Assembly (NCBI GenBank): GCA_022565355.1
Contig: JAIUMU010000002.1
Span: 310,001 to 374,000, forward strand
Reading direction: 5' to 3'
Source: Idiomarina sp.
GTDB lineage: Bacteria > Pseudomonadota > Gammaproteobacteria > Enterobacterales > Alteromonadaceae
Length of the DNA: 64,000 nt
The notes below the pieces were generated by a model that searched no databases, was not told the DNA's origin, and worked only from the letters and a program-made list of their open reading frames with translations. Shown in pieces: positions 1,234-19,811 of the stretch (positions are counted from its first letter, which is position 1; every line of letters starts with the position of its first letter). The position numbers and the translations under genes were made by a program.

Positions 1234-1515
1234 CTAGATGGCTACTGGTGCTTTGATATGCGGATGGGCTTGATAACCCACTAACTCAAAATCTGCATAG
1301 GTAAAGGCAAAAATATCCTTAACCGCCGGGTTAATTTTCATGGTTGGCAAAGCATGCGGTTCTCGGCTTAGTTGCAGCTCTGCTTGCTCCATATGGTTCG
1401 AGTACAAATGCGCATCGCCAAAGGTGTGAATAAATTCACCAGGCTCTAGGCCGCACACCTGCGCCACCATCAATGTGAACAAGGCATAGCTAGCAATGTT
1501 AAAGGGCACACCCAA
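1234..1515 (-). pseudogene. thyA: Host thymidylate synthase, 3' part (codons 185-277), cut off by element insertion
   Basis: This part encodes the C-terminal 93 residues of ThyA, from [13 protein letters not shown] through LYSNHMEQ and LSREPHALP to the invariant ending IKAPVAI. It joins in frame to the fragment at 19812-20363: 184 plus 93 codons gives 277, exactly the length of the intact thyA at 12724-13557. An open frame extends upstream to an ATG at 1578, but those 21 residues are element sequence, not ThyA. The fragment lacks the catalytic cysteine and cannot work alone. Precise excision of the element would rebuild the gene. Confidence 0.93.
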
Positions 1516-1590
1516 AAGGTTTATAACCCCAGAAATATGCACAATACGTGTGCTCATATCGCCATATACCCCTCTCATGCATTGTGCAAT
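1514..1590. repeat. Left end of the element: terminal inverted repeat and recombinase-site-like motifs
   Basis: Just inside the thyA junction, TTTATAACCCC (1520-1530) is the inverse of TTTATGCCCCC read on the minus strand at the other end (19799-19809), 9 of 11 bases identical. Further in, GCACAATA (1539-1546) is an exact inverse of TATTGTGC at 19780-19787. GCATTGTGCA (1579-1588) is repeated in the same orientation at 19710-19719. Ordered motifs at both ends of a tyrosine-recombinase element suggest core and accessory binding sites. This is read by eye; no binding data are implied. Confidence 0.6.
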
Positions 1591-1856
1591 TAACCTTACC
1601 GCTCTTAGTGCAGCATGTTAGCAACATATAGATAATAGATACACCTTCTTAGCCTTGTATTGCCTAGAGTCCATTACTTTTGACTAGTTTTCTAAGGTAG
1701 TATTTGACGAGTCGGCGTACCAGTGATAATTTTCATGAAAGGCACTAAACCTAGATGAGTCCTCAAACCGGTGCCCACACAAACCTAAGTACTATAATAA
1801 CTAGCAACTGACGTCCAAGCCACTAAAGACTCAAAAAGCGGACGTAAGGGATAGTT
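1516..1856. other. Non-coding left-end region of the element
   Basis: After the end motifs (to 1590) no gene is seen up to the 333-aa gene at 1857. A TATAAT at 1793-1798 is a possible -10 box for that gene, but no good -35 box is seen at the right distance. AAGGGA just before the ATG at 1857 is a fair ribosome binding site. No tRNA or long repeat was found. Confidence 0.4.
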
Positions 1857-2858
1857 ATGTCAGATTCAAACGTATTAATCAGTCAACACGATTTACCACT
1901 TCTCAAAGACTTCGTTAAATTTACATTAGACAATAGCAACGTCAACGTCAGTTTGCATGATGGTTACAACCTCTTAGCGAAAGCCATTGGTTATCGTAAC
2001 TGGAATTGCCTGTCTAAATCGAATAAACATGAAGTCTTGTTTTCAGATGTATTTCAAGTCCTGAATGAATCTGCTCCGGCATTCTTCAAGGAAATAGCAA
2101 ACCATACCAGTACGACTCTAACTGAAGAACAAGCAATATCGGCGCGAGATAGAGCTTTTGCTTCTTTCATTCCTTCTAACCGAAAATGGCTAGAACTCAG
2201 TGGTGTTGGACGCAGCGCCTACAACAATGAGATGAAGATCTGCTTACTACCTACAGAGAAGCCAGCCTGCTTTATCCTCTTAGGCTACAAAAGCTATTTG
2301 GAACTTTTGATAAGAGCAAAACACATTAATGAGAACCCAGACCTATTCGCAATGCAAATTATTGAGATAGATTTAAAAAAGACCCGAAGAAGAGTACGAC
2401 CACATAAAACAAGTCTTCCAATCTATTCTTACCTAGATTCGTATATTAAAAATGCGGTCTTTGTAGAGAAAAGTAACATAATAGTTACTCACTACAACTC
2501 AATTAAGTCTGAAGATGTCGTAATATCTGACATTTCAATGCAGTACCTATGTGCGAGGTCTGCCTTTTTTTATCCAATTAGCTATTGTTATACACTGGAG
2601 GTGAAAAATAGTTCGCTGCTACTCTATTCAAACAATGAGTTTGACAACAGAGTAATAGGTATTGACTTTAAGCCAAAGAAAGCTCTTGAACAATTCAAAG
2701 AAAATCGCCCAAATGGAGAATATATTCCGATAGAGCTATTATTGTGCATCAATCAACTAAAAGATAGCCCTGTGTCTTATGGCGAGGAGTGCTACCTCGA
2801 ATTTTGCAATAAATATATTTGCGCATATTACAATCTAAGCTATATAGCGAAACCATAG
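1857..2858 (+). CDS. Unknown 333-aa cargo protein with an N-terminal helical domain
   Basis: I do not recognise the whole protein. Residues about 10-60 have a helix-rich pattern ending in LLAKAIGYRNWNCLSK. This resembles the small N-terminal domain often annotated as glyoxalase-related, whose hallmark is a (L/A)xxxGYxxWxxL stretch; that match is from memory. The rest, about 270 residues, shows no motif, signal peptide or membrane segment. It is the only cargo gene on the plus strand and converges on the SIR2 gene, with 52 bp between them. A ribosome binding site (AAGGGA) supports the ATG. Its place in a defence-rich element makes a defence or regulatory role possible, but nothing in the sequence proves it. 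Confidence 0.7.
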   Translation: MSDSNVLISQHDLPLLKDFVKFTLDNSNVNVSLHDGYNLLAKAIGYRNWNCLSKSNKHEVLFSDVFQVLNESAPAFFKEIANHTSTTLTEEQAISARDRAFASFIPSNRKWLELSGVGRSAYNNEMKICLLPTEKPACFILLGYKSYLELLIRAKHINENPDLFAMQIIEIDLKKTRRRVRPHKTSLPIYSYLDSYIKNAVFVEKSNIIVTHYNSIKSEDVVISDISMQYLCARSAFFYPISYCYTLEVKNSSLLLYSNNEFDNRVIGIDFKPKKALEQFKENRPNGEYIPIELLLCINQLKDSPVSYGEECYLEFCNKYICAYYNLSYIAKP

Positions 2859-2874
2859 CTTTCTTTTACTCAGA

Positions 2875-2890
2875 AGCAATACTCATTGCT
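2875..2890. terminator. Small stem-loop between convergent cargo genes
   Basis: AGCAAT-ACTC-ATTGCT forms a 6-bp perfect stem with a 4-base loop between the ends of the 333-aa gene and the SIR2 gene. No T-run follows on either strand, so if it acts as a bidirectional terminator it is a weak one. Confidence 0.25.
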
Positions 2891-2910
2891 ATGTGTCGTT
2901 AAATATACTT

Positions 2911-5900
2911 TCAACCAATCATCGACCATTGATTTTTAATTTCGGAAAATTCATTTTCTGACTGACAAATGTCTTTCCATTTCAGGACTTCAGAGGGCAT
3001 GACTTTCTCCATCTTAAAGTAACACTGATAAAGAGTGTGAGCCAACTTTGCAGCGCTTTTCCTTAAAGCTAAATTTTCTTCGAAATTTAAATGCTCAAAT
3101 CCACGCGCGATGCTGTTGAGAGATTTTAGTATCGCAGATTCAAGTTCAGGATTTAATTTATCGATATATAGCTTCAAAATACAGTTCACAACCTGAAGGG
3201 CCTCAACTAGGTATTGCCCCCTAGAATACCTTATAAAAGTAGCAAGAAGACTTTCATACTGTTCACGACGCTTATCATTATTACGGAGAATCGCGTCTAT
3301 GGCTCTTAATGCATCTAAGACCTTATACTTTTCAAAACTTGAGATAGAATCTTCAACGTCGCTAATGAAATCGTCTTCGTCGTATGACACGAACTCGTGG
3401 GCCACAGCTTTTAAACTTAGACTGTCAAGGCCCAACGTCTTAAATTCAGCAATCATTTTCTCGATTTGTTCTCTGTACCTAACCATGTTGTTGCGTATGA
3501 TCACTACATCAATAGCAGCGACAAAAAGAGAAAATCTATCCCGCATCTCTTTGAATAGCTCGCTATCGCTTTTTCTTGCCTCAAAAATAGCCTTATCCAA
3601 CTGCCACCATGTTATAAGCTTCTCTGCGTGATTTATGAGTTCGTCTTTGCTCCATTCTATATGAGCGCTACCACCAACTATTTCGCTAGTAAATGGATCT
3701 GGCCTTCCTCGCATGCTGAACGAACTTGGCTTAGCACTATTCGCTTGTATCAGTGGCGAAGCATCAAGCAAAAACTCGCGAAACGCCTTTTCTATGTTTC
3801 TATCCCCTTCAAACATATCTATAAATGCGAACTTAAAGTATCCAGTATTTTCTGGAAGCCCGTACTTATCTTTATGGAATAGAAGTTTAGTTAACAAGCT
3901 TTTGATTTGATTCTTATTTAGAAGCCCCATATTCTTTAAACTAACAAGAGTGATGCTTGCGTTTTCCCTTACGTCATTTACATTTGACTTTAAAGCATCT
4001 AGAAATGGCTTCACTTTATTGTGAGGTAGCTTACGCTCGCTAGCTTCCTCTATTGACTTAATATCTGAAGAAAAATAAATAAAGCTAAAAGGATTATAAA
4101 AATAAAAAGAATTAAATTTGTCTAGTTCGCCACTTATCCCGTATCGAGCGATATCAACAATCTGGTCTACACGAGAAATAATTTCTCGATCACTAAACGA
4201 AAACATCAACCTTTTTACTAGGTTATTCAAAGAATCATATTTATTTCTGTTAAAGTTATTGCTGTAAATTTTTATCAATAACGTTAAAACTTGATCTTTG
4301 ATTTTGGTACTTGCTTTACAGCAGAGCCTCGAAAGAACCTCGGGCAAAACAAAACCATAATCGTAGAGGCTACTTTCTTCATTGACAAATGAATTCAAGA
4401 GGTCAATATAGCTTTTAGCTAATTCATCAACATACTCAGTATCAAATTCCAATAAACTTTCTCTTGTAAAAATTAACTCAATGCTTTTTTTATCTCGCGT
4501 TCGAAGCATGGTCACCATTGCCCAGTAGGGAGCATGCGTTGCAATCCTTTTGATGGCATTATTTGCCATAGTATTAGCAATATTGACCCGAGGCAAGCTG
4601 AATGGTAAAGCTGCATCTTCGAAAAACCTCAACAATCGGAACGCATTGAGCACCTCATCACTCTCAAAAGAAAAGTGACGTGTTGTCCTCTGACTTCCTA
4701 TATCAAATCCACTGGTAACAGAGATAGCCTTCTGAGGCGTCGGTTCATGCTTTATCTCTAATTGTAGTAATTCCATTTCTTGCCGTGGATTACATTTGAA
4801 CTGTTGAAGCTCATTTAATCTATCTTGGTACTCTTGTTTTTGCTCCGACGACCAATTACCGGATTGTATCGATAAGGCTAAATTAACATTAGTTAGTAAA
4901 ACTAAGATATAGGATTCGAGTGACACGTTTCCGTATTCTACAATAGAAGTATCCGCGTTGATCTTTCTTCGAGTTTTAACAAGAGCTTTTTCAAGCAAGT
5001 CTCTTGCATTACCTAGACTATTCACTTCAGCCAGTATGCTTGCTTTCCTAAACATCCAAATAGCTGACGTCGATCCAGAACCCCAGCGTGTTAGTAAATT
5101 CGTGAGCTCTGCCCCCTTATTTTCCATTAAAAGGTACAACGCTTTTTCATGGGTTAGATAGTCGATATAAACTGGCTCTTTAAATTTATCAGATGCCACT
5201 TTGAAAAGCGTCTTCCATGAGCTTTTTTTTCCTTCCTCCCGATAATATCTCAGTAAAGACATTACAATATGGAAAACTTTAGGATCTTTCAATTTATCTT
5301 TCGAAATATCAGCTTCGATTGACGACCAAATTGAATTAACTTCATTGTCAAACACCGGAAGTAATGATTTTTCTTTACGCCATAGAAATTCATATACAAA
5401 GTCTTTCATTAACTGCAATGGTATCGATTCACTCTGACTGAATATCTCTGACCAATCGCGTGTGTAACTCCATAGCTTCTTTCTTAAGTCGTGAGGAACA
5501 ACAAGCCAATTTGGGTAGGATTGCCTTTCATCTCGCCACAGCTTTGTCACCTGCGATATATTGTTTGGTAACTTCTTGATATCCAGCATACCTTTATCGT
5601 TTTTCTTCGGGCGGATATACTTTGGCGACAAGTTCCAATCACTCTTGGTTTCAGAGTCAGTTTTAAACCTACAGTAATTAATAAATTTAGCGATCCCGCC
5701 GCGATGATCACTCTTTTGAACGTCGTCACATAGCGACATGTCTACGCACGTTATATTATATTGCGCCAACGCTTTTTCTTGTGATGCAGACAAGTTCAAT
5801 ACACCTATAAGGTATATTTTGGGTGAATTCTCTTTACCTAAGTTATCTCTAATCCAACCAACCCATTTAAGAAAGTTTGGATCATCTCCTGAGAAACCAA

Positions 5901-6513
5901 TCAAACACAAGGTGTTCTCTAACAACGTTTGTTGTACGGTATTAACGAAAGGAGCAAATTTTTGAGGGTAAATTCTATAGTCTTCTTCGCTAATAATTAA
6001 AGGAGTCGAAGCAGAGAAGCAGCCGTGCAATTTAAATATACGAGGAGGCATTGAATGAACTAAGTTATCTTTATGCACTACTACTTTGTAATTTCTTTCA
6101 TTCACAGAGTCAGCGGCACGCTCCAAAAGGGTATCGTAATTAGTTGTAAAAACATCTGTCCAAGGCAGACTCAGTAAGGAGTGGTGCAACTCAGACGGTT
6201 TGTAGTCATTATCTGGAATATTTTCTCTAAGGAGCGAGTCCAGAACTGGACGACCAAAATTTGATTCAACTTCATATGCTAGCTTTAGCGGGTCGAAAAA
6301 ATTGTACTTGGCATTGCGTATGTCCTCTCCTCTCACCTTCTCAAAAAAAGCATTACCTAAATCTTGCCAACTAGGAAATTTTTTTGCATTTTCGAACGTC
6401 GGCTTTGCATTCATACTAAACCCTGCACCCACCATAATGGATGCGTTTCTGTCAGATAAGCATTGTGCTATCTCATCAAGATAAGGCTTAATCGAAGAAG
6501 GGATTTCCTGCAT
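2911..6513 (-). CDS. Large SIR2-domain protein, probable anti-phage NADase (DSR-like)
   Basis: The N-terminal 290 residues or so form a SIR2-like domain, with GAGFS (residues 29-33), TTNYD (123-127), KLHG with the predicted catalytic histidine (161-164) and LIGFSGDDPNF. In bacterial defence proteins such domains typically cleave NAD+ to stop phage growth. The remaining ~900 residues are helical-looking without a recognised motif. That gives the layout of defence-associated sirtuins, where the long C-terminus senses the phage. The frame could start at 6609, but ATG 6513 (MQEIPSSIKPYL) is chosen because GGA lies just upstream and the SIR2 fold begins right after it, giving 1200 aa. No second defence gene is clearly paired with it. 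The SIR2 fold is clear; the biological role is inference. Confidence 0.85.
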   Translation of the reverse strand: MQEIPSSIKPYLDEIAQCLSDRNASIMVGAGFSMNAKPTFENAKKFPSWQDLGNAFFEKVRGEDIRNAKYNFFDPLKLAYEVESNFGRPVLDSLLRENIPDNDYKPSELHHSLLSLPWTDVFTTNYDTLLERAADSVNERNYKVVVHKDNLVHSMPPRIFKLHGCFSASTPLIISEEDYRIYPQKFAPFVNTVQQTLLENTLCLIGFSGDDPNFLKWVGWIRDNLGKENSPKIYLIGVLNLSASQEKALAQYNITCVDMSLCDDVQKSDHRGGIAKFINYCRFKTDSETKSDWNLSPKYIRPKKNDKGMLDIKKLPNNISQVTKLWRDERQSYPNWLVVPHDLRKKLWSYTRDWSEIFSQSESIPLQLMKDFVYEFLWRKEKSLLPVFDNEVNSIWSSIEADISKDKLKDPKVFHIVMSLLRYYREEGKKSSWKTLFKVASDKFKEPVYIDYLTHEKALYLLMENKGAELTNLLTRWGSGSTSAIWMFRKASILAEVNSLGNARDLLEKALVKTRRKINADTSIVEYGNVSLESYILVLLTNVNLALSIQSGNWSSEQKQEYQDRLNELQQFKCNPRQEMELLQLEIKHEPTPQKAISVTSGFDIGSQRTTRHFSFESDEVLNAFRLLRFFEDAALPFSLPRVNIANTMANNAIKRIATHAPYWAMVTMLRTRDKKSIELIFTRESLLEFDTEYVDELAKSYIDLLNSFVNEESSLYDYGFVLPEVLSRLCCKASTKIKDQVLTLLIKIYSNNFNRNKYDSLNNLVKRLMFSFSDREIISRVDQIVDIARYGISGELDKFNSFYFYNPFSFIYFSSDIKSIEEASERKLPHNKVKPFLDALKSNVNDVRENASITLVSLKNMGLLNKNQIKSLLTKLLFHKDKYGLPENTGYFKFAFIDMFEGDRNIEKAFREFLLDASPLIQANSAKPSSFSMRGRPDPFTSEIVGGSAHIEWSKDELINHAEKLITWWQLDKAIFEARKSDSELFKEMRDRFSLFVAAIDVVIIRNNMVRYREQIEKMIAEFKTLGLDSLSLKAVAHEFVSYDEDDFISDVEDSISSFEKYKVLDALRAIDAILRNNDKRREQYESLLATFIRYSRGQYLVEALQVVNCILKLYIDKLNPELESAILKSLNSIARGFEHLNFEENLALRKSAAKLAHTLYQCYFKMEKVMPSEVLKWKDICQSENEFSEIKNQWSMIG

Positions 6514-6721
6514 ATTTATTCCATTTTGTTTAATTTCGTTAATAAACACAAAGATAAAATTCCGATGGCGCAGATAAAGAAGATTCTCTCTACAAAGGAT
6601 GCATCTCAATCTAGACTTATTTTACTTATCAAACCTTCTCAAGGAAACAATACTCAAGTAAACCCCAGAGTAAGTACTCGCTGTAATCAGCTCATCACAC
6701 CTTCATGTACTAAGATATCAC

Positions 6722-6931
6722 CTATGTTGGAATAAATTTACCTTCCTTCAGTATGCCGTGCTCAACAACTCCTGACGGTAAGCGCCGTATCAGCAAGTCA
6801 CGATTGTTTGGATCGGGTGAGTACAAAGTGTTGCCGTCAGCTATCAATTGTTTATACAAACCACCTTGAAGCGAATCCAGCGTCACTTCTCTCGCAAGCG
6901 CATATACATCCAGAGGTTTTCTGTTAGTCAT
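6722..6931 (-). CDS. Small unknown cargo protein (69 aa)
   Basis: I do not recognise this protein. A longer frame begins at 6961, but ATG 6931 is preceded by a perfect AGGAGG (6936-6941) at a 4-base spacing and is chosen as the start (MTNRKPLDVYALAREV). It is soluble and mixed charge, with no cysteine or membrane segment. It lies 67 bp downstream of a 97-aa gene on the same strand and upstream of the SIR2 gene. The strong ribosome binding site argues that it is a real gene. Confidence 0.6.
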   Translation of the reverse strand: MTNRKPLDVYALAREVTLDSLQGGLYKQLIADGNTLYSPDPNNRDLLIRRLPSGVVEHGILKEGKFIPT

Positions 6932-6998
6932 GGAGCCTCCTAGTTGCAGCTCTACCATCACTTCAGGCTACATACTTTCCTGAGTGTCGAGTCGTTCT

Positions 6999-7292
6999 CT
7001 ATGACTCCTTGCCAGAACGTTGCAGTTTGATTTCGTTAGCGGAGGCAAATGACTGAAGCTTTTGGTCGTAACGAGATAACTCTTTAGCATATCGGCAGAA
7101 AAACTTTACCGTACTGCTCTCAATGTCAAACGTGGCCCGCAGGTCGTTCTCTCCTGCATCGACTGAATACCACCCGTTTCCCAAATTATGCGCACATCTG
7201 GCTCTTACAAAGTGCTCTCTGGCAAATTTTGAGAGTACCTCTTCAACCTGATCTGAATTGATTGTATGAAAAGTTGTTTGACAGTACGGCAT
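6999..7292 (-). CDS. Small unknown cargo protein (97 aa)
   Basis: No family is recognised. The protein starts MPYCQTTFHTI, is soluble and ends in a basic tail (KLQRSGKES). GAGAGG lies eight bases before the ATG. It is on the same strand as the type III R-M pair and the 69-aa gene, and 225 bp of non-coding DNA separates it from res, so it probably has its own promoter. Function cannot be stated from sequence. Confidence 0.55.
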   Translation of the reverse strand: MPYCQTTFHTINSDQVEEVLSKFAREHFVRARCAHNLGNGWYSVDAGENDLRATFDIESSTVKFFCRYAKELSRYDQKLQSFASANEIKLQRSGKES

Positions 7293-7342
7293 GGCAATAG
7301 CCTCTCGTTCAACGTCTTTTGAACATAATAGAGTCTGATTAC

Positions 7343-7380
7343 CGCTGACGCAAATACTAGCTGATAAGCCTGCGTCAGCG
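7343..7380. repeat. 10-bp perfect inverted repeat upstream of the small cargo genes
   Basis: CGCTGACGCA (7343-7352) and its exact complement TGCGTCAGCG (7371-7380) are separated by 18 bases in the gap between res and the 97-aa gene. No T-run follows on the minus strand, so an operator or a weak termination structure are both possible. Confidence 0.4.
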
Positions 7381-7517: not shown

Positions 7518-10500
7518 CTATCCGTTTAATGCTTCGTTTAGTGTTGTCACCACATCGAAATTCACACCAATAGCGGCGAAGTGCTTCTCGCCACAAGCGA
7601 TTTTATCTTGCTCCGATTCGCGTAATTCTTTTCGATTACGTGTGCTTTTAGTTTCACGAACTAGATACAGCTTTTCCTCACCCTCAGTGACTAATGCCCA
7701 GTCTGGGTTGTATGGCCCGACAGGTGTATCAATTTTGAAGCTGGCCGGAAGTTTGCAGTAAAATTTAATACGCTCATCACTATCACAAGCCTTTGCAAAG
7801 GCTCGCTCTACTTCGGAGTCATACTCGACAAAATCAAACAACGTCTTGTCTTGGTTTTGCACTTCATACAAATTGTTTAAGTACCGAGTAATACCTCGTT
7901 CTGCCTCTTCTTCAATCTTATGCATTTCATAGCTACATCCACCAACCTTTTCGTACTCAATGCCCTTCACTGTAACGTGGTGCAAAACATCCTGAATACA
8001 CTGGGTAACTTGGTTGATGAACACTTGCGGGTTTTCAAGAAAATCTTTCAATCTGCCGCTGCGCTTGAGAATATTCACTAGGGTGTGACGGGTTAGCTCG
8101 GTGCTATTTTGCAAATAAGCCAATAGATCCGGTAACTCTGGTGATTGGCTTATCTCACGGACGCCGCCAGAAATTTGCTCACCTTCAATTCCTGCCTTGT
8201 TCGTATCTAACCGATAAACTTCGGTTGTGATTCGAGAGCGGTGAATTGGGGGCATGTCAGCAATACTTTTCGCAGCGTCTTTGACCAGCTCTTCAGTATC
8301 GAACACAACTCGGAATTTTGTACGTTGGGTGATTCGTTTCCAAAGCTCTACGAAGTCAGGATCAAGAGTGACATTCTTTCTCAAGGTCAAGGTGCGCTTG
8401 TCCCGAGCATCGGCTATGCGATTCTTGAAAACATACTTATTTATCTCATCCGCAATCTGAGGGCGCATGTGCGCCCATTCAGGGGGGAGGTCTAGAGTAA
8501 AGTGAGGGTTCTTAGGGTCGAATTTATCCGTCACCTTTCCTTCAGCATCTAGATAGCCACTTTCGTGCAATGATTTAAAAATAGCTTCTGAGGCCTCTTG
8601 TCCAATATTCACATATTGTTGCGCTTGAGGGTTGGCAAGTTTCGCAAACGCATTGATATCTAGCTTGCCGAAACCGATTCCATAATCCTCTTCGTATTCC
8701 GTCTGCAACTGATTAGCGAAGTCGTCGTATGATTCATTTGCAATAACAGTCAAACGATTTATCGACGGATCGTGCACACGTTCACCATGTTGATTGACTG
8801 GTAAGCGCAAGCCCCTCCCAATTTCTTGACGTTTTCTATCTGCACTCTTAGTCTCATTTAAGGTACAGATTTGAAACACATTCGGGTTGTCCCAACCTTC
8901 GCGTAATGCAGTATGCGAAAAGATGAAGCGTAATGGCTCATCTAAAGACAACAACTGCTCTTTATCTCGCATGATAAGTGAATAGGTATCTTCATCAGCT
9001 TTAGTGGTGCCTGATGTATCTTTGTAACCTTTTTTATCTTGGGAAAAATAACCGTTATGCACGTCTACCACAGGATAATTCAGCAACCCTTGATATAGGG
9101 GCTTTTGAGTCAGTTCGTTATACGCCTCTTCGAACCACTTACCCAACTTCCCCAAGTTGCTCGTGCCATCGTCCTTATATTCACGGTAGTTCGAAACTTT
9201 ATCGATAAAGAACAGTGAGAGGACTTTAATGCCTTTGCCTTTGACGGCCAACTCTTTCTTGAGATGCTGTTCAACCGTTTCATATATCTGCGCACGCATC
9301 AACTCACCATCTAAGCCTCCCAATTGCTCTCCTAGCCGCAATATCTGACCGTTGGCAAATTCAATGTGTTCAAGACCCGGTTCACAACTTATATTTGCGA
9401 CTATCCAGCCGTGTTGGTATTCCTGTCGCTCTTTTGAAGCAGTGTACAGATCTACTCCCTGCCTCACTGTGACAAGCTTTTTCTTCGGCCCTGCTTTATC
9501 CTGCACGTTAATTTGCAGTTTCGCTTTAATGCCTTTCTTATTGTCTAGGTCTTTTAGAGCAACAAACGTGTTATTAAAGCTTTGCTCCTCAATCATACTA
9601 GCGACTTCGATCCGCTTGACTAATTTAAGGTCATAAGCTTCGATCGGCCCCAAGCTATACAGTAGGTTATAAGGATTTTTGTGCGTAGCTGAATAGCGAA
9701 GCGTACAAAGTGGATTGAGGCTGTGCAACGCTTCAGAACGTTTAGTTCTATCTTTACTGGTATCGCCTTCTACCGACTGTGGCTCATCAATAATTACGAT
9801 AGGGTTCGTCGCACGAATAAAGTCGATCGGTTTGTTGCCACTTAATTTATCCTGCTCTCGGTTGATAATATTCTGTTCTTTCTCAAAGGCCTGAATATTT
9901 ATCACCATGATCTGGATTTTGTTACTCGAACCAAACTGGCGCACTTGACCTAACTTGGATGGCGTATACACGAAATGATCGAACGGCACATGCTCATATA
10001 GCTCGTGAAAATGCGAGCGCATGATTTCTAAGCTTTTCAAAACCCCTTCACGGATTGGAACACTCGGGACTACGATTATAAACTTAGTAAACCCATAGGT
10101 TTTATTCAGTTCAAAAAGGGTGCGAAGATAGACGTAAGTCTTGCCCGTTCCTGTTTCCATCTCTACCGAAAAGTGCGGCACATATTTTTCAATCTTGTAA
10201 GTGCCTTCTTCATCTTCTTGCTCTAGGTCAAAAGTGGTGTTCCGTAGCTCATCGGCAAGTAAGATGTTATTTGCCTCCTGCACATTACGTAGGTTTTTCA
10301 ATAGTTGGTCGTGAGACAGCAATAGCTGATTGGAAACCGCAGCAATACCATCAAAACCACCGCCGTCCAACGAAAGCTGGCTACCACCAGAATGTTGTCC
10401 AACGGATACTGTGAACGCATCTTGTGCCAGTGGTTGCTCCTCGAACAAATCAACTACTGACTGAACTGCTTGTTTTTGATAGCTAAGCGTGGCGTTAAAT

Positions 10501-10520
10501 TTGAGCTTCAATAAAGACAT
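7518..10520 (-). CDS. Type III restriction enzyme, Res subunit
   Basis: Res is the ATP-dependent translocase and nuclease of type III R-M; it cuts only in complex with Mod. The 1000-aa protein has a superfamily 2 helicase core: Walker A METGTGKT (about residue 120), motif II IIDEPQ (about 243), motif III SATH, and motif VI EIGRGLRLP (about 566). The C-terminal nuclease is visible as NPDWALV (about 936) followed by YLVRETK (about 953), a PD-(D/E)xK arrangement. It starts 9 bp after mod and is surely co-transcribed with it. No frameshift or missing motif was seen, so the system appears intact. Confidence 0.93.
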   Translation of the reverse strand: MSLLKLKFNATLSYQKQAVQSVVDLFEEQPLAQDAFTVSVGQHSGGSQLSLDGGGFDGIAAVSNQLLLSHDQLLKNLRNVQEANNILLADELRNTTFDLEQEDEEGTYKIEKYVPHFSVEMETGTGKTYVYLRTLFELNKTYGFTKFIIVVPSVPIREGVLKSLEIMRSHFHELYEHVPFDHFVYTPSKLGQVRQFGSSNKIQIMVINIQAFEKEQNIINREQDKLSGNKPIDFIRATNPIVIIDEPQSVEGDTSKDRTKRSEALHSLNPLCTLRYSATHKNPYNLLYSLGPIEAYDLKLVKRIEVASMIEEQSFNNTFVALKDLDNKKGIKAKLQINVQDKAGPKKKLVTVRQGVDLYTASKERQEYQHGWIVANISCEPGLEHIEFANGQILRLGEQLGGLDGELMRAQIYETVEQHLKKELAVKGKGIKVLSLFFIDKVSNYREYKDDGTSNLGKLGKWFEEAYNELTQKPLYQGLLNYPVVDVHNGYFSQDKKGYKDTSGTTKADEDTYSLIMRDKEQLLSLDEPLRFIFSHTALREGWDNPNVFQICTLNETKSADRKRQEIGRGLRLPVNQHGERVHDPSINRLTVIANESYDDFANQLQTEYEEDYGIGFGKLDINAFAKLANPQAQQYVNIGQEASEAIFKSLHESGYLDAEGKVTDKFDPKNPHFTLDLPPEWAHMRPQIADEINKYVFKNRIADARDKRTLTLRKNVTLDPDFVELWKRITQRTKFRVVFDTEELVKDAAKSIADMPPIHRSRITTEVYRLDTNKAGIEGEQISGGVREISQSPELPDLLAYLQNSTELTRHTLVNILKRSGRLKDFLENPQVFINQVTQCIQDVLHHVTVKGIEYEKVGGCSYEMHKIEEEAERGITRYLNNLYEVQNQDKTLFDFVEYDSEVERAFAKACDSDERIKFYCKLPASFKIDTPVGPYNPDWALVTEGEEKLYLVRETKSTRNRKELRESEQDKIACGEKHFAAIGVNFDVVTTLNEALNG

Positions 10521-10529
10521 GTTACTTCC

Positions 10530-12723: not shown

Positions 12724-13557
12724 TCAGATAGCCACTGGAGCTTTTATATTTGGGTATGCGTCATAATTGTGGATCACAAAATCCTCAAATTTGTAACCAT
12801 AAATGCTATCTGGTTTTCTAGCAATCTCTAACGTGGGCAACCCATGAGGTTCACGCGAAAGTTGCTCTTGAATTTGTTCCATGTGATTTGAGTAAGCGTG
12901 TAAGTCACCAAAACTGACGATCACCTCTCCCGGCTCTAAATCACATTGCTGGCACAGCATATGAACCAACAAGGATAGGCTAGCGATGTTATATGGTAAT
13001 CCCAAGAAAATATCTGAGCTTCTGATATACAGTTGTCCTGAGAGCTTTCCATTTGCTACGTAGAACTGATAAAGCAGGTGGCATGGAGGAAGTGCCATTC
13101 GACCATTTCGGGCGTTCTCTTGCGGACTCACAGTCTCGTCAGGTAGGTATTCAACATTCCATCCATGAAACAAAATTCTTCTGCTGTTTGGATTGGTTTT
13201 CAAAGTGTTCACAACGTAGTCGATCTGGTTAATCTTACCGCCGTCTTTCGTCGGCCATGCAGTCCACTGCTCACCATAGATAGGCCCCAAAGAGCCATCT
13301 TCAAGTGCCCATTCATCCCAAATTTTCACACCGTTTTCATTGAGCCAATGATTATTGGTATTTCCATTCAAGAACCAGATCAGCTCGTTAGCTATGCTCT
13401 TAAAGTGAAGCTTCTTGGTAGTGAGTAAAGGAAAGCCATCTTTCAAATCATGTCTAATTTGGCGACCAAACACGGACTTTGTACCTGTACCAGTACGATC
13501 TCCTTTTTCTACGCCGTTCTCTAAGACATCTTTTAATAATTCTAAGTAAAGTTTCAT
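12724..13557 (-). CDS. thyA: Intact thymidylate synthase carried by the element
   Basis: ThyA converts dUMP to dTMP with methylene-tetrahydrofolate. This 277-aa copy has [12 protein letters not shown], the catalytic cysteine in LPPCH (C159), the dUMP-binding [12 protein letters not shown] and HAYSNHMEQ, and the conserved ending IKAPVAI. It is clearly diverged from the interrupted host copy (for example [12 protein letters not shown] against [12 protein letters not shown]), so it was not made by local duplication. Its ATG overlaps the stop of the preceding 158-aa recombination gene (ATGA), with GAGAG upstream. It therefore sits as the last gene of the recombinase operon and presumably restores the thymidylate supply that the insertion destroys. 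Confidence 0.97.
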
Positions 13558-14030
13558 TTATTCTCTCTCAATAGCTCTTTCATTAATTCGACTTGAGCTT
13601 CTAAATCGCGTACTTTGGCCTTTTCTTTTTCATATGCAGAGCGATAAAAATCTGCATTCTCTCGTGCCCTTTTCAATTGATTTTCAAAATCTCCGCGATC
13701 TCGATTAGCTTCTCGATATTGTGCAAACCAATACACAACCTCGCTCGACAGACCGTCAATTGTCTTCTGTAACTCTTTTTCCTTATCCCTTTTTTCCTTA
13801 GCTGAGGCTGCTGCTGCCTCTTTCCTTATTTTTTTTATCTCTTTCAGTCGCCGTGCAGGAAACTTCCTATTCGTTACTGTATTCCTTGAGACACCAGCCA
13901 ACAAAGCAACTTGAGCATTGGTTGCAGGTAGCTTAGAGTTCTTGGCTATCGATTCCAACGCATTAGTTAGCCGCAATGTTACGCTATCATAGTCATCAGC
14001 ATTCTTGTCATCGTAAGCTTGATTTGTCAT
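13554..14030 (-). CDS. Small HTH and coiled-coil recombination-associated protein (Srap-like)
   Basis: This 158-aa protein has a helix-turn-helix-like segment, [18 protein letters not shown] (about residues 39-56), then a long charged coiled coil (about 63-158, rich in E, K, R and A). The position, directly after three recombinase-fold genes, and the size fit the fourth conserved gene (srap) of SE elements and recall TnpC of Tn554; both comparisons are from memory. It probably helps or directs recombination by binding element ends. It overlaps intB and thyA by 4 bp each, so its translation is coupled to both. Confidence 0.65.
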
Positions 14031-16105
14031 ATGAGAACTTCCTCGCCCAGCAATTTTAGCACGCCTTCTGCTTCCTTAATTGCTGATAAAAGCTGCTCTT
14101 GCCTATCCTCATAACCTTCTCTGCCCAAAAGTGCGCGGTTTGTTACGACTACTTCCCTCCATTTAGGAGCATTCACTTTCGTAACTACAGCATTCGAACA
14201 TCTTATGGGATTACACCTCAATGAGCCAATGCAGGGTAAAGAATCGTCAAAGTCTTCAACACCCCCAAAACAAAATCCACTACCGACATTTATGACAGCA
14301 AGGCCTTGCTTGGCCATAGCATCAAAGATTTCATCTCGCGAATAGCCTGCTGCTAGATAGCCTTGAAATACCTTTGTAATCCTATGCTTGTGCTCTCTTC
14401 CTTTTGGACCAGCGTAGTTACCCTCTGGGTCCATAACACTTTTTACTCGTTCGACCTCAGCTAAATGTCGGATCTCCCGAGTATGTGCTTTATCTTGAGT
14501 TATCCGCTCAGCGATTTCCCCGTAACCAAGAGTTGTGTCCGAAGTAGCACCAAAACTTGTGTAGCGACCAACATGGTCTACGACATGTTTTAGCTGAAAA
14601 GATATGAAGGGTAGCCCGAGTTCGGCTCTGTATAACTGGTAGGTGAGAGTATGTCGCAACATGTATGGATTGAAATTTATCTTCTTTGCGTTTTCGTCAC
14701 CATAAATACTTGCAAAGTAATTATTGAAAAAGTGAGCAATGCCGCCGGGGCCCATACTGTCTCCTTCAGCATCAGGGGCTACGGTGTCTACGTTGCTAAG
14801 CAAATAGTCATTGTTTTTAAGCACTGAAATCAATTGTGCAGCCCTCAGTGCATCCTTCATAATTGGAATTGTTACCCACTTGTCATCAAATAACTTAAGG
14901 TTATCTAAGCGACCTTTTTTGACATTTGAGCAAATCAGATCAAATCCGTTTTCGCTATTAAGGCATGAAGAAATTTTTATTTCTGCTGCTTCACTTGGTC
15001 GCATGCCAGTAAATTGGTAAATAATGTATGCGCTCGCATAATAGACCTCATTGACTTCTTTCCTAAGATCATCAAAGTGCGAGATGCCATGCCTAGCTTT
15101 TGCAATTTTTCTAACGTTTTCGCTAAACATTAACTTACCATCATCTCTCAAGTATTCTCTGGAGATATCACAGAATTTTGAGATGTACTCATCAGAATAT
15201 CCCTTAGTCAATAGCCGTATCAAAACATAATCGTTAAGAGTTTCCTTATTGAAACTGAAATGACGTTTTGCATTTTTACTTAAAAATTCGTAATGACTGA
15301 GGGCAACCTTGTCATTAACTTCCTCCTCCAATGACATAAGGAAACCAAGGACTTTTTGAGTGGAATGAGTAGTATTACGCTCGAAGATCTCATTCTCAAA
15401 CACCAAGCTTTGCTCACGCTTAGATACCTCTTGAGTAGGCCAAGGGAGAGTGGAAAAATCTACTTTTACTTGTTCTCCTAGAATTCTTATTGATAGTGGA
15501 TGAGATAGATATCTAAGAAACTGCTTAAGTTGATTATCTACTCTTAGTTGGAATGCACTTGCAGCTTGTCGGAAATCTGCATCGAATACATCAGTTATAG
15601 ACTTGTATTTATCAAGAACATATTCAACGCCCATCTCATTTAACTGACCAAATAAGAAGTCTATGTATCGAAGCCCTCCCTCAAATTGAGAAATAGCTGT
15701 ATTTGGTTTTAGGGATCCTCGCTTAGACTTACCCTTCATGCCGCTTTTTTTAAATGATTCAGGAGCTGCTAAAACATAATGCAATAAACATTTCATCTCA
15801 ACAAGGATGTACGGGGGAACGTTAGAATACTTGGAGAAGTTGATTTTTAACTTCGCTCCTCGAATCGACTTGGGAGGGTTCAGAACGTCGTCATTGTAAT
15901 CCCATATCGTATCCTCAAACCGACTCAGCTTAGTGACATTCAATTTCATTAAGTTAGCGATAAGCGCGGAAGGGTTGAATGCCTGTGTTGATGGCTCAGC
16001 TTGTTTAATATTAATCTCTGAAATAACCAGAGGGATTAAAGCATCCTTGTGCCTGCCAAGTTGATGTAATAATTTTATACTTTGTTCCTGCTTGCTAGCG
16101 ATCAT
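14027..16105 (-). CDS. Large tyrosine recombinase (IntB-like) with C-terminal cysteine cluster
   Basis: The 692-aa protein has a recombinase catalytic domain in its C-terminal half: box I arginine in FTGMRPSEAAEI, box II as PYMLRHTL (tyrosine where the first histidine of HxxR is usual), then LKHVVDHVGRYTSFG with a candidate nucleophilic tyrosine. After this comes a cysteine-rich tail, FCFGGV...LPCIGSLRCNPIRC (about residues 620-650), that could bind zinc. The N-terminal ~350 residues are not recognised. It is third in the recombinase operon, overlapping its neighbours by ATGA. It probably acts with IntA in strand exchange at the element ends. Confidence 0.82.
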   Translation of the reverse strand: MIASKQEQSIKLLHQLGRHKDALIPLVISEINIKQAEPSTQAFNPSALIANLMKLNVTKLSRFEDTIWDYNDDVLNPPKSIRGAKLKINFSKYSNVPPYILVEMKCLLHYVLAAPESFKKSGMKGKSKRGSLKPNTAISQFEGGLRYIDFLFGQLNEMGVEYVLDKYKSITDVFDADFRQAASAFQLRVDNQLKQFLRYLSHPLSIRILGEQVKVDFSTLPWPTQEVSKREQSLVFENEIFERNTTHSTQKVLGFLMSLEEEVNDKVALSHYEFLSKNAKRHFSFNKETLNDYVLIRLLTKGYSDEYISKFCDISREYLRDDGKLMFSENVRKIAKARHGISHFDDLRKEVNEVYYASAYIIYQFTGMRPSEAAEIKISSCLNSENGFDLICSNVKKGRLDNLKLFDDKWVTIPIMKDALRAAQLISVLKNNDYLLSNVDTVAPDAEGDSMGPGGIAHFFNNYFASIYGDENAKKINFNPYMLRHTLTYQLYRAELGLPFISFQLKHVVDHVGRYTSFGATSDTTLGYGEIAERITQDKAHTREIRHLAEVERVKSVMDPEGNYAGPKGREHKHRITKVFQGYLAAGYSRDEIFDAMAKQGLAVINVGSGFCFGGVEDFDDSLPCIGSLRCNPIRCSNAVVTKVNAPKWREVVVTNRALLGREGYEDRQEQLLSAIKEAEGVLKLLGEEVLI

Positions 16106-18438
16106 GCGGTTACTCCATCAACATAGGCTGTTTGTTCAAACATTGAAAGTCGCTCGCCTTTCTCTAATTCTTCTTCACTGAAATCTGACTTTTCAGGATT
16201 TAAAATTTCATCCAGAACAGATAGGTTTTCCTCTATCACGACCCCGTAGGGTGTGTCCATAATGCGATTGCGTTGCATCAGAATCATATAATCTCGCTTC
16301 ATTGCGAATAGCATCGGCAGGTGTTCCGCAATTATCATTACATTGTCGCATGACAAGCATTTATTATATTGAGAGCAGGGTTGACCTTTCTTATAAAGAG
16401 AAGATTTCTGAATAAAATCAGGAGGTGAAAACAAGTTCGAGCAGCCAGCTAGAGGAGTCGAAAACATCGTTATCTCTCGGTGTTCCATGTTCTGTTCTGC
16501 TTGTTTTTTTGCTGGTTTTATTACCTTCGCATGGATGTGCTTTAGCGTCTCTGATAACTTCAGTCTCGCAATTCGATTGAAGTCCAATCGATCAAGGTAG
16601 TTGATCGTCGTTTGAATGTTACTATGACCTAAAAGAAGCTGTATTTCTCGGATACTAACTCCAGCCTCAATCAACTCGCTTACGAAAGTCGGGCGAAAAC
16701 GAGATATACTAAAACTTAATGTTCGATTTTCTGTGTCTACCAGATTATGCCGAGACACGAAGTTCTTATACACGCTAGTCAGAATAGATAAATTGAAACG
16801 CTTCACAACGCCATAGCTATTCTGTCCAGTACTCTTATATATGAAGAGTAGGTCTTTGATAGAATCAGGAGCATCGCTTCTGATTGACGTCGTAAGGGCC
16901 TTCACAGAATTGAAAATCTCTTCAATTTCTTTACTCTGTTTTCTAGTAAGCCATTGTAGTTTGGCTTCAAACAGATCTAAATGCATTTCCTTCTCCCCGG
17001 TACTTCGCTCCTTCCAATACCGTAGACAGGGTTTTCCAGTTACTGGATGCTCAGGCACAAAGTCGTCGTGAGTGAGATCAATTAAAGAATCTGCATTCAT
17101 GCCCGTAACTTGTGCAAGCCGCAGTAAGAAGGGCGCAATTACCCCAGCGTCAATAACTGGCAGTATTCCCCAACTTTTATATAAACCATGTAGTCCTAGT
17201 TCACTTTTCTTAACGATTGATAGGAAAGCCTTTTCTGGACGAGACTTTGCAGTATGATTGAATACAGGCTGACAGGCTAAATGATTTTCAAACAAGAATC
17301 TGGCGTTATCAAGGGTCCCCATTCCGGCTTTGAGATTTTGTTCTTCGTCAAAAGGGTTCTCACCTATGCCGGTTTTAAAGTAAGTAGTAAACTTGGTAAT
17401 TTCATTAATATCTGACTGAATTGCGTAGCTGATCGCTTCGCGTTCTTTGGTAGTGTATGGCTTGTAATATTCGCCGGTTCGCCCCTTAGCAATCATTTCT
17501 ACGTCGTAGAAGCTGTGGAAATCTAAACCTTCTATAGACTTTGCACGCTTAAGCATAGCTCGAACCGCACTTACAATTGTAGGTGCTGAATTCGGTGACA
17601 TTTCGCCGGAGTCGAGTGCAGGCAAAATGTAATCTGCTTTGAACCTTTTAAGAATAAACTCATTGAGAATATTCTTCAGAGTTTCATTTTCTGGTATTCC
17701 ATTAGCTTTCAAAAAACGACATAAGTGATTAAAGCCATCACGAAAATTGTTCTTAGTAGAGCGAGATGAGGCGGTATGCCGAAGCACCGCCGCTAAGTGC
17801 TTTAATTGAGAAAAGGGCTCTGTTTCACTAGATGTATTCAAAAAGTCATCTACATTTCTTAAAGGCATTCTCCCGAGATCATCCCAACGTTTTTTGCTCG
17901 CCTTTTGATTTGCGATATAGGACTTATCTCGCAATTTATCTCGGTCTTTCACCTCGATATAATCTTTAGTCAAGACTCCCAGCTCGATAAGCTCTTCGTT
18001 AATTTGACTACACACTTTTCCTAATAACTCGTATCCCTTGCCTCTTCTCCATCCCTTAATATATTTTTGAGCTTGTACAGAATTTCCAAATGTAGCGACT
18101 TCTTTCTTTTCTTCAATTGATAACCCACGCCACCAATTTAATGTGTTTCTCCGTAATTCCAGTGCTGAAGCACTCTCCTTCTTTAAAAGTACTCCCTCTT
18201 TTTTAAGCACATCATTTAACTGTTCCATTAGAGCGCTGTACATCGCAGATGCTGAAGTGTTTCCCCGCAGTGCATCCGTTGAAATTCCTAGAGCCTTACT
18301 CAAATGTGCATAAGATGCCGTTGCGTAGTAATCATCTTTAAGTACTTTGTTTCCGATCGGCACATCCCAAGCGCGTTGAGGATTTGCAACAATATCTCTC
18401 ACATACGATTCGAGTGCTTGATACTTAAATTTTTTCAT
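16102..18438 (-). CDS. Recombinase-fold protein lacking some catalytic residues (Tfp-like)
   Basis: This 778-aa protein has the end of a tyrosine recombinase fold: LLGHSNIQTTINYLD (about residues 603-617) with histidine and tyrosine in the right places. But box I reads VTGMNADSLIDL, with asparagine where the catalytic arginine is expected, and box II reads SRFRPTFVS, lacking the HxLR histidine. A cysteine cluster follows (CSNLF, then PCSQYNKCLSC, about 660-690). This agrees with the remembered Tfp of SEs, a recombinase-fold protein whose activity is uncertain. It may be a structural or targeting partner. ATGA overlaps link it to genes on both sides. Confidence 0.78.
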   Translation of the reverse strand: MKKFKYQALESYVRDIVANPQRAWDVPIGNKVLKDDYYATASYAHLSKALGISTDALRGNTSASAMYSALMEQLNDVLKKEGVLLKKESASALELRRNTLNWWRGLSIEEKKEVATFGNSVQAQKYIKGWRRGKGYELLGKVCSQINEELIELGVLTKDYIEVKDRDKLRDKSYIANQKASKKRWDDLGRMPLRNVDDFLNTSSETEPFSQLKHLAAVLRHTASSRSTKNNFRDGFNHLCRFLKANGIPENETLKNILNEFILKRFKADYILPALDSGEMSPNSAPTIVSAVRAMLKRAKSIEGLDFHSFYDVEMIAKGRTGEYYKPYTTKEREAISYAIQSDINEITKFTTYFKTGIGENPFDEEQNLKAGMGTLDNARFLFENHLACQPVFNHTAKSRPEKAFLSIVKKSELGLHGLYKSWGILPVIDAGVIAPFLLRLAQVTGMNADSLIDLTHDDFVPEHPVTGKPCLRYWKERSTGEKEMHLDLFEAKLQWLTRKQSKEIEEIFNSVKALTTSIRSDAPDSIKDLLFIYKSTGQNSYGVVKRFNLSILTSVYKNFVSRHNLVDTENRTLSFSISRFRPTFVSELIEAGVSIREIQLLLGHSNIQTTINYLDRLDFNRIARLKLSETLKHIHAKVIKPAKKQAEQNMEHREITMFSTPLAGCSNLFSPPDFIQKSSLYKKGQPCSQYNKCLSCDNVMIIAEHLPMLFAMKRDYMILMQRNRIMDTPYGVVIEENLSVLDEILNPEKSDFSEEELEKGERLSMFEQTAYVDGVTA

Positions 18439-19673
18439 CGTTTTTCCTTCAATGGAACGGTCAATCGAGTGCTTTTTGATAGTCGCTCCATAAGGTCTGC
18501 TCTTGTCAAAAGAACACTATTATTATCTTGATACTGACCATAAATATCGTAGGGTAGAGCGGTATAAATTTGAGTTGTGGCTATATGTGAGTGCCCCAAA
18601 CACTGCTGTAGTACCACTAACTTATCTACACTGTGCTCGCCAAGATCTGGTGATCTTAATACCCCCCCAGCGAAGCCATGTCTCAACATATGAGGATGGA
18701 TTGGGCGCTCAAGTAATCCTCTTTTGATTGCTCTATCAGAGAGCTTTTTTAGAATTTTTCCAATTGATGCCTGTGTATATGGTCGTCCTTCAGAGTTAAT
18801 GAATGCACGCGCATCGAGGCCATATTTACCCGCTAGTTTGCGATATTCGGGTGTGGAAAAATAACGTCTAACTCTTGCTAGTGTCGCAGAACTTGGAAGA
18901 GTGTATCGAGGCTTAACTTCCCGCTTTCGCCCCTTACTTCCTGCTACGTAGAGGGCTTTATACTTTGATGGCAATGCTACAGTTTCTTGGTCTACGATCA
19001 GTGTTGATTTATTCGAGTTAAATGCTTTATCTATATCCGTTTTCTTGACTTTTGTAACTTCGGAACGACGAACCCCAGTATCGTACATAAACTGTATCAT
19101 CGCCCTTTCTCGTTCTGAATGTGAACACAAGATAAGGGCTTTTAACTCATTGAGTGTGCACATCTCGACGACTTTTGACTTAGCCGCCCTAGATAATAAT
19201 CCGTCATCGTAGGGATTATCGTCTCTAATTGCTTTGCCATCTCGGCGCGCTCTGCATAGATATTTATCAAAGAATATTTGGAAGGTTGCGTCTCTATTTC
19301 GAATTGTATTAGACGATAAACTGCACTCAGTTTTCAGATATGCGAAGTACTCCTGAATCGTATGACTATAGATGTGCAGGAAAGCATCGTCTACGGCTAA
19401 GTTCTCGTAGCTCTGTGCCTCATTAAGGTAGTCAAGAAAATAGGAAATATTATTAGCGTAAGTGCCAATTGTGCTTGGAGGAGTTAGCTTCTCGCTAAGT
19501 TCTTCCGTCAACCAATCCGAAACGAGCGGCAGTACTTCGTGGTTTTTATTAAAAGCCACAACAGCGCGAGTTTTCTTCTGAGACAAAACAATATCTTCTT
19601 TTAATTCACTTTGCCCAAGAACATGAGACTTACTTAAGTCGACTGTTTCGTTATCTATAATTTTAAATCTCAA
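18435..19673 (-). CDS. Tyrosine recombinase IntA-like
   Basis: This protein has the full catalytic set: box I arginine in DTGVRRSEVTKV, box II HMLRHGFA, the LGHSHIATTQ motif and the tyrosine in IYTAL. An N-terminal SAM-like core-binding domain (about residues 60-160) precedes it. The frame reaches ATG 19727, but TTG 19673 is preferred: GGAGG lies 5 bases before it, and the longer version would begin inside the promoter and end motif. That gives 412 aa. It is the first gene from the right end and heads the five-gene operon. It is the best candidate for the enzyme that cuts the element ends. Confidence 0.85.
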   Translation of the reverse strand: MRFKIIDNETVDLSKSHVLGQSELKEDIVLSQKKTRAVVAFNKNHEVLPLVSDWLTEELSEKLTPPSTIGTYANNISYFLDYLNEAQSYENLAVDDAFLHIYSHTIQEYFAYLKTECSLSSNTIRNRDATFQIFFDKYLCRARRDGKAIRDDNPYDDGLLSRAAKSKVVEMCTLNELKALILCSHSERERAMIQFMYDTGVRRSEVTKVKKTDIDKAFNSNKSTLIVDQETVALPSKYKALYVAGSKGRKREVKPRYTLPSSATLARVRRYFSTPEYRKLAGKYGLDARAFINSEGRPYTQASIGKILKKLSDRAIKRGLLERPIHPHMLRHGFAGGVLRSPDLGEHSVDKLVVLQQCLGHSHIATTQIYTALPYDIYGQYQDNNSVLLTRADLMERLSKSTRLTVPLKEKR

Positions 19674-19699
19674 GACTACCTCCAATACTACACTACTCA

Positions 19700-19727
19700 A
19701 TAATACCACGCATTGTGCATTTTTCAA
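19700..19727 (-). promoter_or_regulatory. Predicted intA promoter overlapping an element-end motif
   Basis: On the minus strand TTGAAA (19722-19727) and TATTAT (19700-19705) are 16 bases apart and well placed for the TTG start at 19673. The spacer contains the repeat ATGCACAATGC (19710-19720), the same motif found at the left end (1579-1590). A recombinase or Srap-like protein binding this motif would cover the promoter, which would give self-regulation. Confidence 0.5.
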
Positions 19728-19811
19728 GTGTCACGAATTAATTTTTTAAAAGTTTAAAAAAAAGAATCAATGATATTTATATTGTGCAATTCTATAGTGG
19801 GGGCATAAAAA
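19706..19811. repeat. Right end of the element: terminal inverted repeat and recombinase-site-like motifs
   Basis: Next to the thyA junction, GGGGGCATAAA (19799-19809) is the imperfect inverse of the left-end TTTATAACCCC (9 of 11). TATTGTGC (19780-19787) is the exact inverse of the left GCACAATA. GCATTGTGCA (19710-19719) repeats the left copy in direct orientation. The outer motif lies 23-32 bases from each boundary. No gene lies here; the region holds the element end plus the intA promoter. Confidence 0.6.

Follow-up and report, generated by a model that had tools for sequence, protein, structure and literature searches.

An insertion in thyA of Idiomarina sp. that carries its own thyA, and relatives of its recombinase module in four target genes

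The interrupted thyA locus and its recombinase operon

A 64,000-nucleotide stretch from an Idiomarina sp. genome (assembly GCA_022565355.1, contig JAIUMU010000002.1, positions 310,001 to 374,000; here referred to as the window, with positions counted from its first letter) contains a host gene for thymidylate synthase, thyA, that is interrupted by an 18,296-bp insertion, and this insertion carries a complete and diverged thyA of its own. The genome (2.7 Mb) is 94.95% complete. The features of the broken locus and of the element ends are as follows, where loci and genomes used for comparison are denoted by L and G numbers, respectively, and the gene names lgt and tcdA are those that we presume for the flanking genes.

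20378-21280: lgt-like gene, adjoining the 5' end of host thyA
19810-20363, minus strand: 5' part of host thyA, 554 nt (184 codons plus 2 nt), 15 nt behind the lgt-like gene
19810-19815, minus strand: attL 6-bp spacer CTTCTT, the same as in the uninterrupted site of L024
19797-19809, minus strand: left terminal motif C, TTTATGCCCCCAC, an imperfect inverted repeat of the right end; similar motifs are likewise placed in relatives
1514-19809, minus strand: inserted element, 18,296 bp including the 6-bp spacer at its right end
1520-1532, minus strand: right terminal motif C', CTGGGGTTATAAA; comparable motifs occur in relatives
1514-1519, minus strand: attR 6-bp spacer CCTTTT, unlike the left-end CTTCTT
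1234-1513, minus strand: 3' part of host thyA, 280 nt (1 nt plus 92 codons and stop), followed by the tcdA-like gene
418-1218: tcdA-like gene

The cut in the host gene (base 554 of 834) follows the second base of codon 185 and falls within the conserved S-x-D-x-F-L-G-V-P-F-N stretch of thymidylate synthase. An earlier note on this DNA had rightly recognised an insertion that splits thyA, but had put the break between codons 184 and 185 and the right limit of the element at 19811, 2 nt beyond the limit found here. The joined flanks form an open frame of 277 codons plus stop with no frameshift, and 277 codons is also the length of the carried gene, as the note had stated. The junctions were placed using this joined frame and the uninterrupted site of the same-genus genome L024, which reads GATAT-CTTCTT-GGGTGTGCC. 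In the window, the left end reads GATAT-CTTCTT-TTTATGCCCCCAC and the right end CTGGGGTTATAAA-CCTTTT-GGGTGTGCC, i.e., at each end a 6-bp spacer lies between the host arm and the imperfect inverted motif of the element.

From the left end, the element contains four recombinase-operon genes, all of which are open, then thyA, genes for a type III methyltransferase (Mod) and restriction enzyme (Res), two small open reading frames (ORFs), a gene for a Dsr2-like protein, and an ORF on the opposite strand. The operon and the replacement gene are located as follows.

18435-19727, minus strand: recombinase gene 1, 430 aa; Pfam Phage_integrase match (2.8e-17); invariant R220, H346, R349, H379 and Y388 in an alignment of 7
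16102-18438, minus strand: recombinase gene 2, 778 aa; Phage_integrase match; invariant R582, H605 and Y614
14027-16105, minus strand: recombinase gene 3, 692 aa; long N-terminal part and Cys-rich C-terminus; used as the family marker
13554-14030, minus strand: gene 4, a small protein of 158 aa
12724-13557, minus strand: replacement thyA, 277 aa; its start overlaps the gene 4 stop by 4 nt

Gene 2 has Asn448 in place of the usual first Arg, and gene 3 has an invariant Arg369; a family search with gene 4 gave no informative match. The replacement ThyA matches PF00303 over its full length (362.5 bits, positions 2-266 of 266) and is 58.5% identical to the joined host ThyA. It holds the motifs DRTGTGT, SRR, PPCH, RSSD and YSNHM, which we take to be of catalytic meaning.

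A PF00303 search of the window genome returned exactly three ThyA matches, namely, one intact (that of the element) and two partial, and a search of the same genome for ThyX (PF02511) gave no match. The carried thyA is the sole intact thymidylate synthase gene found there. Among 16 other genomes of the genus, each has one ThyA match, and in 15 of them thyA is uninterrupted, as the earlier note had proposed to check, and 77-89% identical to the joined host protein over residues 1-277; lgt is adjacent in all 15, and the tcdA-like gene was found on the other side in 11. The sixteenth genome (G004) has a ThyA of another type at the locus. An assembly artefact is a very unlikely source of the split, because the terminal motifs at both ends resemble those of insertions in other genomes and because all 48 further genomes searched have partial and intact thyA.

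Relatives of the module, their targets and their replacement genes

Gene 3 was searched in 394 genomes sampled from the order, and relatives were found in seven, including the window's own; in the other six (6/6), thyA sequence lies beside gene 1 and an intact thyA behind the module. A profile built from these seven was used to scan named genomes, yielding 66 loci out of 90 pattern-matching stretches. Five of the six order relatives apparently recur among the 66 (L045, L046, L053, L080 and L110), and G027 does not. The majority (42) are found in Pseudomonas and Psychrobacter, and the remainder in Acinetobacter, Shewanella, Vibrio, Aliivibrio, several Alteromonadales, Methylophaga, Marinobacter, Aeromonas, one Paraburkholderia and metagenome bins, one of which is labelled an archaeon and is probably misassigned. 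Over the 66 loci, the broken gene is thyA in 49, bcp in seven, nadE in five and DUF808 in three, and two more show only a carried thyA. The latter three target names are those that we presume, with bcp and nadE confirmed by family models. The earlier note had proposed a search for other copies of the module next to a broken thyA with a second thyA, and the 49 thyA cases are of this kind. A ThyA match lies within 50 of the 66 loci, with a partial thyA in 42 and only an intact one in eight; the genome search showed thyA pieces for six of those eight and for L056, which lies on a short contig. Where gene 3 and an intact thyA are both in view (49 loci), the carried thyA lies 427-687 nt behind gene 3 in 47; of the 49, it runs in the direction of the module in 35 and opposite to it in 14.

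The pairing of broken and intact genes was followed genome by genome. For thyA, 50 loci were entered and 48 genomes searched (L099 and L108 were left out, and L103, which shares its genome with L102, was not entered). At least one intact ThyA together with partial matches was found in 48/48, and, among the matches listed, one intact copy and pieces of both ends in 47/48; no ThyX match was obtained in 47 of these genomes. For bcp, a truncated and an intact gene are present in all seven genomes. In each of the five nadE genomes, the gene is present as two pieces and also in an intact form, which lies on the element's side at a distance of about 1.2 kb from the 3' piece; each of these genomes also gave two weaker matches that are probably other proteins. 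The one carried NadE examined (L188) has a CN_hydrolase domain in front, presumably marking the glutamine-dependent type, and the broken host NadE of L090 has NF001979 as its best model, which we take to represent the ammonia-dependent type; the other four intact nadE copies are open frames of 549-581 aa. For DUF808, both pieces and an intact gene were found in the two genomes searched (of three loci). The claim of the earlier note that the element breaks an important gene and brings a replacement thus extends to 48 of 48 thyA genomes searched, 47 of them without a thyX match, and to three other targets, so that its single case looks like a family rule.

In 37 of the 38 loci examined, the host 5' part of thyA still contains no stop within 165 codons, and the insertions therefore look young, or excision sometimes restores the gene. 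Some thyA pieces are listed with internal stops; most of these matches, not each of which was checked, extend beyond the junction into element sequence.

The recombinase tree shows target and cargo switching together. A quick gene-3 tree, with some long branches, was made from 64 rows, namely, 62 of the 66 loci (four short ones were left out), the window and L043; loci whose direction was not visible were labelled in-sense by default. The bcp, nadE and DUF808 groups each form one side of a branch with a support of 100, and thyA rows lie around bcp and nadE (support of 93 for the fork joining bcp and the window's group, 97-99 for the forks around nadE). Five changes explain the target labels, compared with a mean of 20.4 for shuffled labels, and a count as low was reached in 0 of 200 shuffles. 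A deep and separate group (L107, L108 and L110) has the opposite direction, with a broken 3' piece that begins near codon 220, and in two genomes of this group (L156 and L157) the 5' piece reads through the usual site. These differences suggest that thyA was adopted as a target more than once.

Host and carried ThyA may differ in type, at about 27% identity. A type-2 host gene with type-1 cargo is found in L045 and L046, and the reverse in L048-L053; both are type 2 in L072, L080 and L089, and both type 1 in the window and many Pseudomonas. Such sequence difference between host and carried genes should also hinder homologous recombination that would delete the element.

Several loci carry what may be traces of former elements. 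The thyA of G004 (L029, 1498-2343) is of type 2 and stands in inverted direction between lgt and tcdA. On a ThyA tree, it falls together with the carried thyA of Marinobacter L107 (support of 97), which is likewise inverted relative to its host thyA. The G004 gene is apparently a carried copy left behind; vertical inheritance is less likely, given this inversion and grouping. On the same tree, which has 71 rows (14 loci, most of them near copies, were omitted, and 18 host pieces were selected by hand), the thyA genes of four Pseudomonas hosts are nested within the clade of carried type-1 genes, with a support of 100 for the whole clade and 94 for the inner fork, so that either direction of transfer is possible. 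In Pseudomonas helleri (L063, 4954-6223), a truncated thyA is followed by a second broken thyA of a different type, both upstream of the module. Together, the traces in G004, Pseudomonas and L063 suggest serial takeover, short of proof. In a Methylophaga element (L047, 11246-13061), the carried thyA is without its end and a different intact thyA follows; a second element inside this gene was considered and rejected, as the site is still readable and the end of the gene merely lost.

Element ends and likeness to known systems

Among 44 genomes tried in a survey of spacers, both ends could be read in 39, and imperfect inverted repeats C/C' with a 6-bp spacer are present in all of these as well as at the window junctions. 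The left and right spacers differ in 30 of the 39 insertions, as expected for hopping between thyA genes; the number of mismatches over the 39 pairs is 0 in nine, 1 in five, 2 in six, 3 in two, 4 in 12 and 5 in five. The right ends of several Pseudomonas insertions read FLG or PLG in hosts whose own gene seems to be DLGLGTPF. They look like codons of other thyA types and may be read as the mark of a previous donor, as in the SE family of elements, for which a previous-donor spacer at attR has been described (PMC9345347, PMC10214605, PMC10782965). The attR spacer CCTTTT of the window would likewise mark a previous donor site.

The family was compared with known systems as these are described in the accessible text of the papers cited. 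With SEs, it shares a four-gene operon at the left end, imperfect inverted C/C', a 6-bp spacer and unlike spacers at the two ends (PMC10214605). The gene 1 and gene 3 profiles match IntA (2e-10) and IntB (1e-8) of SE-6945, a distant relationship, and the four genes occupy matching positions of intA-tfp-intB-srap; a profile comparison of gene 2 with Tfp of SE-6945 detected no similarity. SE-6283 shows the break-and-replace pattern with bcp as target (PMC5991714, PMC9345347) and may be related to the bcp group found here. Neither 'thyA' nor 'thymidylate' is found in the main text of PMC10214605 or PMC9345347, and 'thyA' is likewise absent from that of PMC5991714, supplementary lists of SE targets lying outside this coverage.

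Genes 1-3 also match, by BLAST or by profile, two plasmid trio operons that we presume to be GInt-like, with gene 2 giving the best match (E 5e-24) and having its nearest counterpart in gene 2 of these trios. The window operon fits the description of ginABCD, i.e., three proteins of recombinase fold and a small fourth protein, the named GInts being compared by description. GInts are likewise site-specific and have cargo that starts right behind the fourth gene (PMC5385486). They differ in that it is GinC that is without the first catalytic Arg, whereas here gene 3 keeps Arg369 and gene 2 has Asn; in that they insert at the ends or beginnings of genes (ssb, ABC transporter) and probably do not fully inactivate the target; and in that their description mentions no replacement gene, unlike the window element (all PMC5385486). 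The family stands between SE and GInt and is filed under neither: a plain assignment to either was not made, since each has features that recur here and one that is absent or open.

Other systems are alike in principle. The RecA mobile element (RME) of Vibrio cholerae is an island inside recA with a diverged working recA, and its mobility genes are a phage integrase and a XerS-like recombinase (PMC4405046). In C. difficile, a 4.2-kb insert breaks the thymidylate synthetase gene and holds another version (Knetsch 2011, cited in PMC4405046). A 65-kb island in tmk of Pseudomonas putida KT2440 also breaks an essential gene of a nucleotide pathway and ties its function to an island enzyme, but the gene is another and the substitute is a dNMP kinase (PMC10653934). 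The staphylococcal Tn552-II 'target-gene-like' (tgl) element shares tnpABC, a homologue of the target gene aboard, a rescue proposed by its authors and a donor att brought along, and differs in being related to Tn554 and in its YolD-like target (PMC12486829). 'ICEs' reported in the chromosomal thyA of Acinetobacter, the genus of L051 and L052, come without mention of a replacement thyA in the accessible text (PMC12904642). That text calls thyA of A. variabilis NIPH 2171 uninterrupted, whereas L052 (G426), from this strain, shows thyA pieces and an intact second type. The break-and-replace principle is thus already known, as far as these accessible texts describe it, from SE-6283 and bcp, recA, tmk, the staphylococcal target and, by citation, the thymidylate synthetase of C. 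difficile. The literature search, which covered most papers by their listing and none by supplementary files, returned no recombinase family in which target and carried gene change in concert, and it turned up neither nadE nor DUF808 as a target of this kind. Within the reach of these searches, novelty lies in the widespread thyA-targeting family, in nadE and DUF808 as targets and in the coupling between target and cargo.

Explanations, significance and further cargo

On the evidence above, it is very probable that a site-specific integrative element has broken thyA in the window and that the host survives on the diverged thyA carried by the element. The break, the replacement, its standing as the only intact thymidylate synthase gene found and the recurrence across four target genes can be read from the sequences themselves; mobility of the element and rescue by the carried gene are inferred. 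The four-protein tyrosine-recombinase module would recognise the conserved thyA stretch and insert in the gene's own direction, and element and host would survive because the recombinase operon is followed directly by a complete, diverged thyA whose start overlaps the end of gene 4. The circular form may carry 6 bp of the last donor site and deposit them at the right end of the new one, as reported for SEs, and the replacement thyA would have to supply enough enzyme, from the element's own promoter or that of lgt-thyA. A widespread core gene as target would offer a landing site in many hosts at the price of carrying a substitute, and after decay of the element its thyA may stay as the host's gene.

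How firmly the host is bound to the element would depend on excision. The earlier note had held that precise excision restores the host gene; this stands at the level of sequence, where the joined frame is open over 277 codons, and ready restoration is uncertain. Empty sites are reportedly hardly generated by SEs (PMC5991714, PMC9345347, PMC10214605), and for GInts they were detected in some strains and not in others (PMC5385486); the lock-in could therefore be tighter than the note had thought, or not. If circle formation rarely leaves an empty site, as reported for SEs, the host would depend on the element's copy, and its loss would be fatal without thymidine.

Several observations weigh against this explanation or limit its reach. 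Nine of the 39 spacer pairs are identical and five more differ by only one base; identical pairs are compatible with a like donor or with the absence of a donor-spacer mechanism. The carried thyA of the window keeps a site much like the target and yet was not hit, and immunity of the carried gene through an altered site is accordingly not supported. Pseudomonas sagittaria (G463) has three intact thyA genes and pieces that are not sorted out, and one of the 48 thyA-element genomes (G466) has a ThyX match. The 34-residue 3' piece of bcp, at the limit of the E-value used, is reported in four of seven genomes and missing from the report in three. In the DUF808 group, the L104 module adjoins the 3' piece with the intact gene upstream of it, while in L105 and L106 gene 1 comes after the 5' piece. 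Two of the 51 thyA loci (L099 and L103) yielded no resolved broken thyA, and plasmid copies of the module lie outside any visible thyA. Lastly, the gene-3 profile was made from seven thyA elements, which biases the sample towards thyA; other targets still turned up.

Three rivals to integration with rescue were considered. The first, improbable but the least so, is an immobile relic, i.e., an old, fixed insertion in which selection acts on the replacement gene alone. It would be in keeping with the viral data, where 17 stretches of viral contigs matched the gene-3 pattern and none was confirmed, and where no gene 3 relative was found in phage records, results that also led to spread by phage being set aside. 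Against a relic stand the four open recombinase genes of the window, its two complete element ends, the undecayed host thyA pieces and a search for gene 3 in 16 other same-genus genomes, which found it in none.

Slightly less probable still is that the carried thyA is a normal cargo gene, retained for an advantage of its own (e.g., a more active or drug-tolerant enzyme, or help against phage), and that its match to the site is incidental. In its favour, a carried thyA sometimes belongs to a different type from that of the host and may then have different properties, and a 32-kb stretch of a P. putida plasmid has the module and thyA with no second thyA match seen. Incidental cargo would not follow the target, however, and the elements that break bcp, nadE or DUF808 sit in genomes where an intact copy of the respective broken gene lies on the side of the break that the element occupies, have no ThyA match in their 15 loci, and belong to a tree on which target labels are strongly clustered. 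The observed co-switching therefore disfavours this rival. It is very improbable that the host ThyA still works as two separately made pieces with a redundant extra copy, an idea raised for tmk in P. putida KT2440 (PMC10653934) and in line with mostly open 5' pieces and long open frames in most 3' pieces, given that the break lies inside a conserved stretch, that an intact copy is present in 48/48 genomes and that in L047, where the carried thyA lost its end, another intact thyA follows.

Beyond integration with rescue at single loci, it is rather probable that the family obeys a rule of 'break one, bring one', in which a new target is adopted together with a working substitute, often from another subfamily (a type-2 ThyA in place of type 1, or a long NadE of two domains in place of a short one). 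Such elements would then be a motor of core-gene replacement, with the G004 thyA and some Pseudomonas thyA being former element copies.

An element that lands by destroying an important gene must solve the survival of its host at every move, and this family seems to have solved it repeatedly, with four genes. This would explain how core genes can serve as landing pads for selfish DNA, why an important step is in some bacteria carried out by an unexpected type of enzyme, and why islands of this kind, which here carry anti-phage genes, may be difficult to lose. It is also a warning for annotation and essential-gene studies, as a thyA or nadE taken for a 'pseudogene' may be the half of a replacement that is seen. 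Because target and cargo switch together, whether the cargo has to match the target can be tested directly in E. coli.

The module was also seen with thyA on two Pseudomonas plasmids (L166 and L167), which are possible vehicles; in L167, an IS30-family gene takes the place expected for the first recombinase genes, and part of gene 3 is missing. Pseudomonas sagittaria (L102, L103 and L164) has two element copies with identical gene 3 alongside its three intact thyA. The further cargo of the window element is as follows.

1857-2858, plus strand: ORF of 333 aa, no family match
6722-7292 (6999-7292 and 6722-6961), minus strand: two small ORFs, no family match
10530-12569, minus strand: type III DNA methyltransferase (Mod)
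7518-10520, minus strand: type III restriction enzyme (Res)
2911-6516, minus strand: Dsr2-like SIR2 protein; start codon chosen by hand (the listed ORF begins at 6609)

The Dsr2-like protein scores 1295 bits with the PADLOC Dsr2 model and 1372.6 bits with that of NCBIfam, just below the cut-off of 1400. The element thus contains two anti-phage systems (2911-12569), namely, type III restriction-modification and the Dsr2-like protein, and these genes may profit from being anchored by the replacement thyA.

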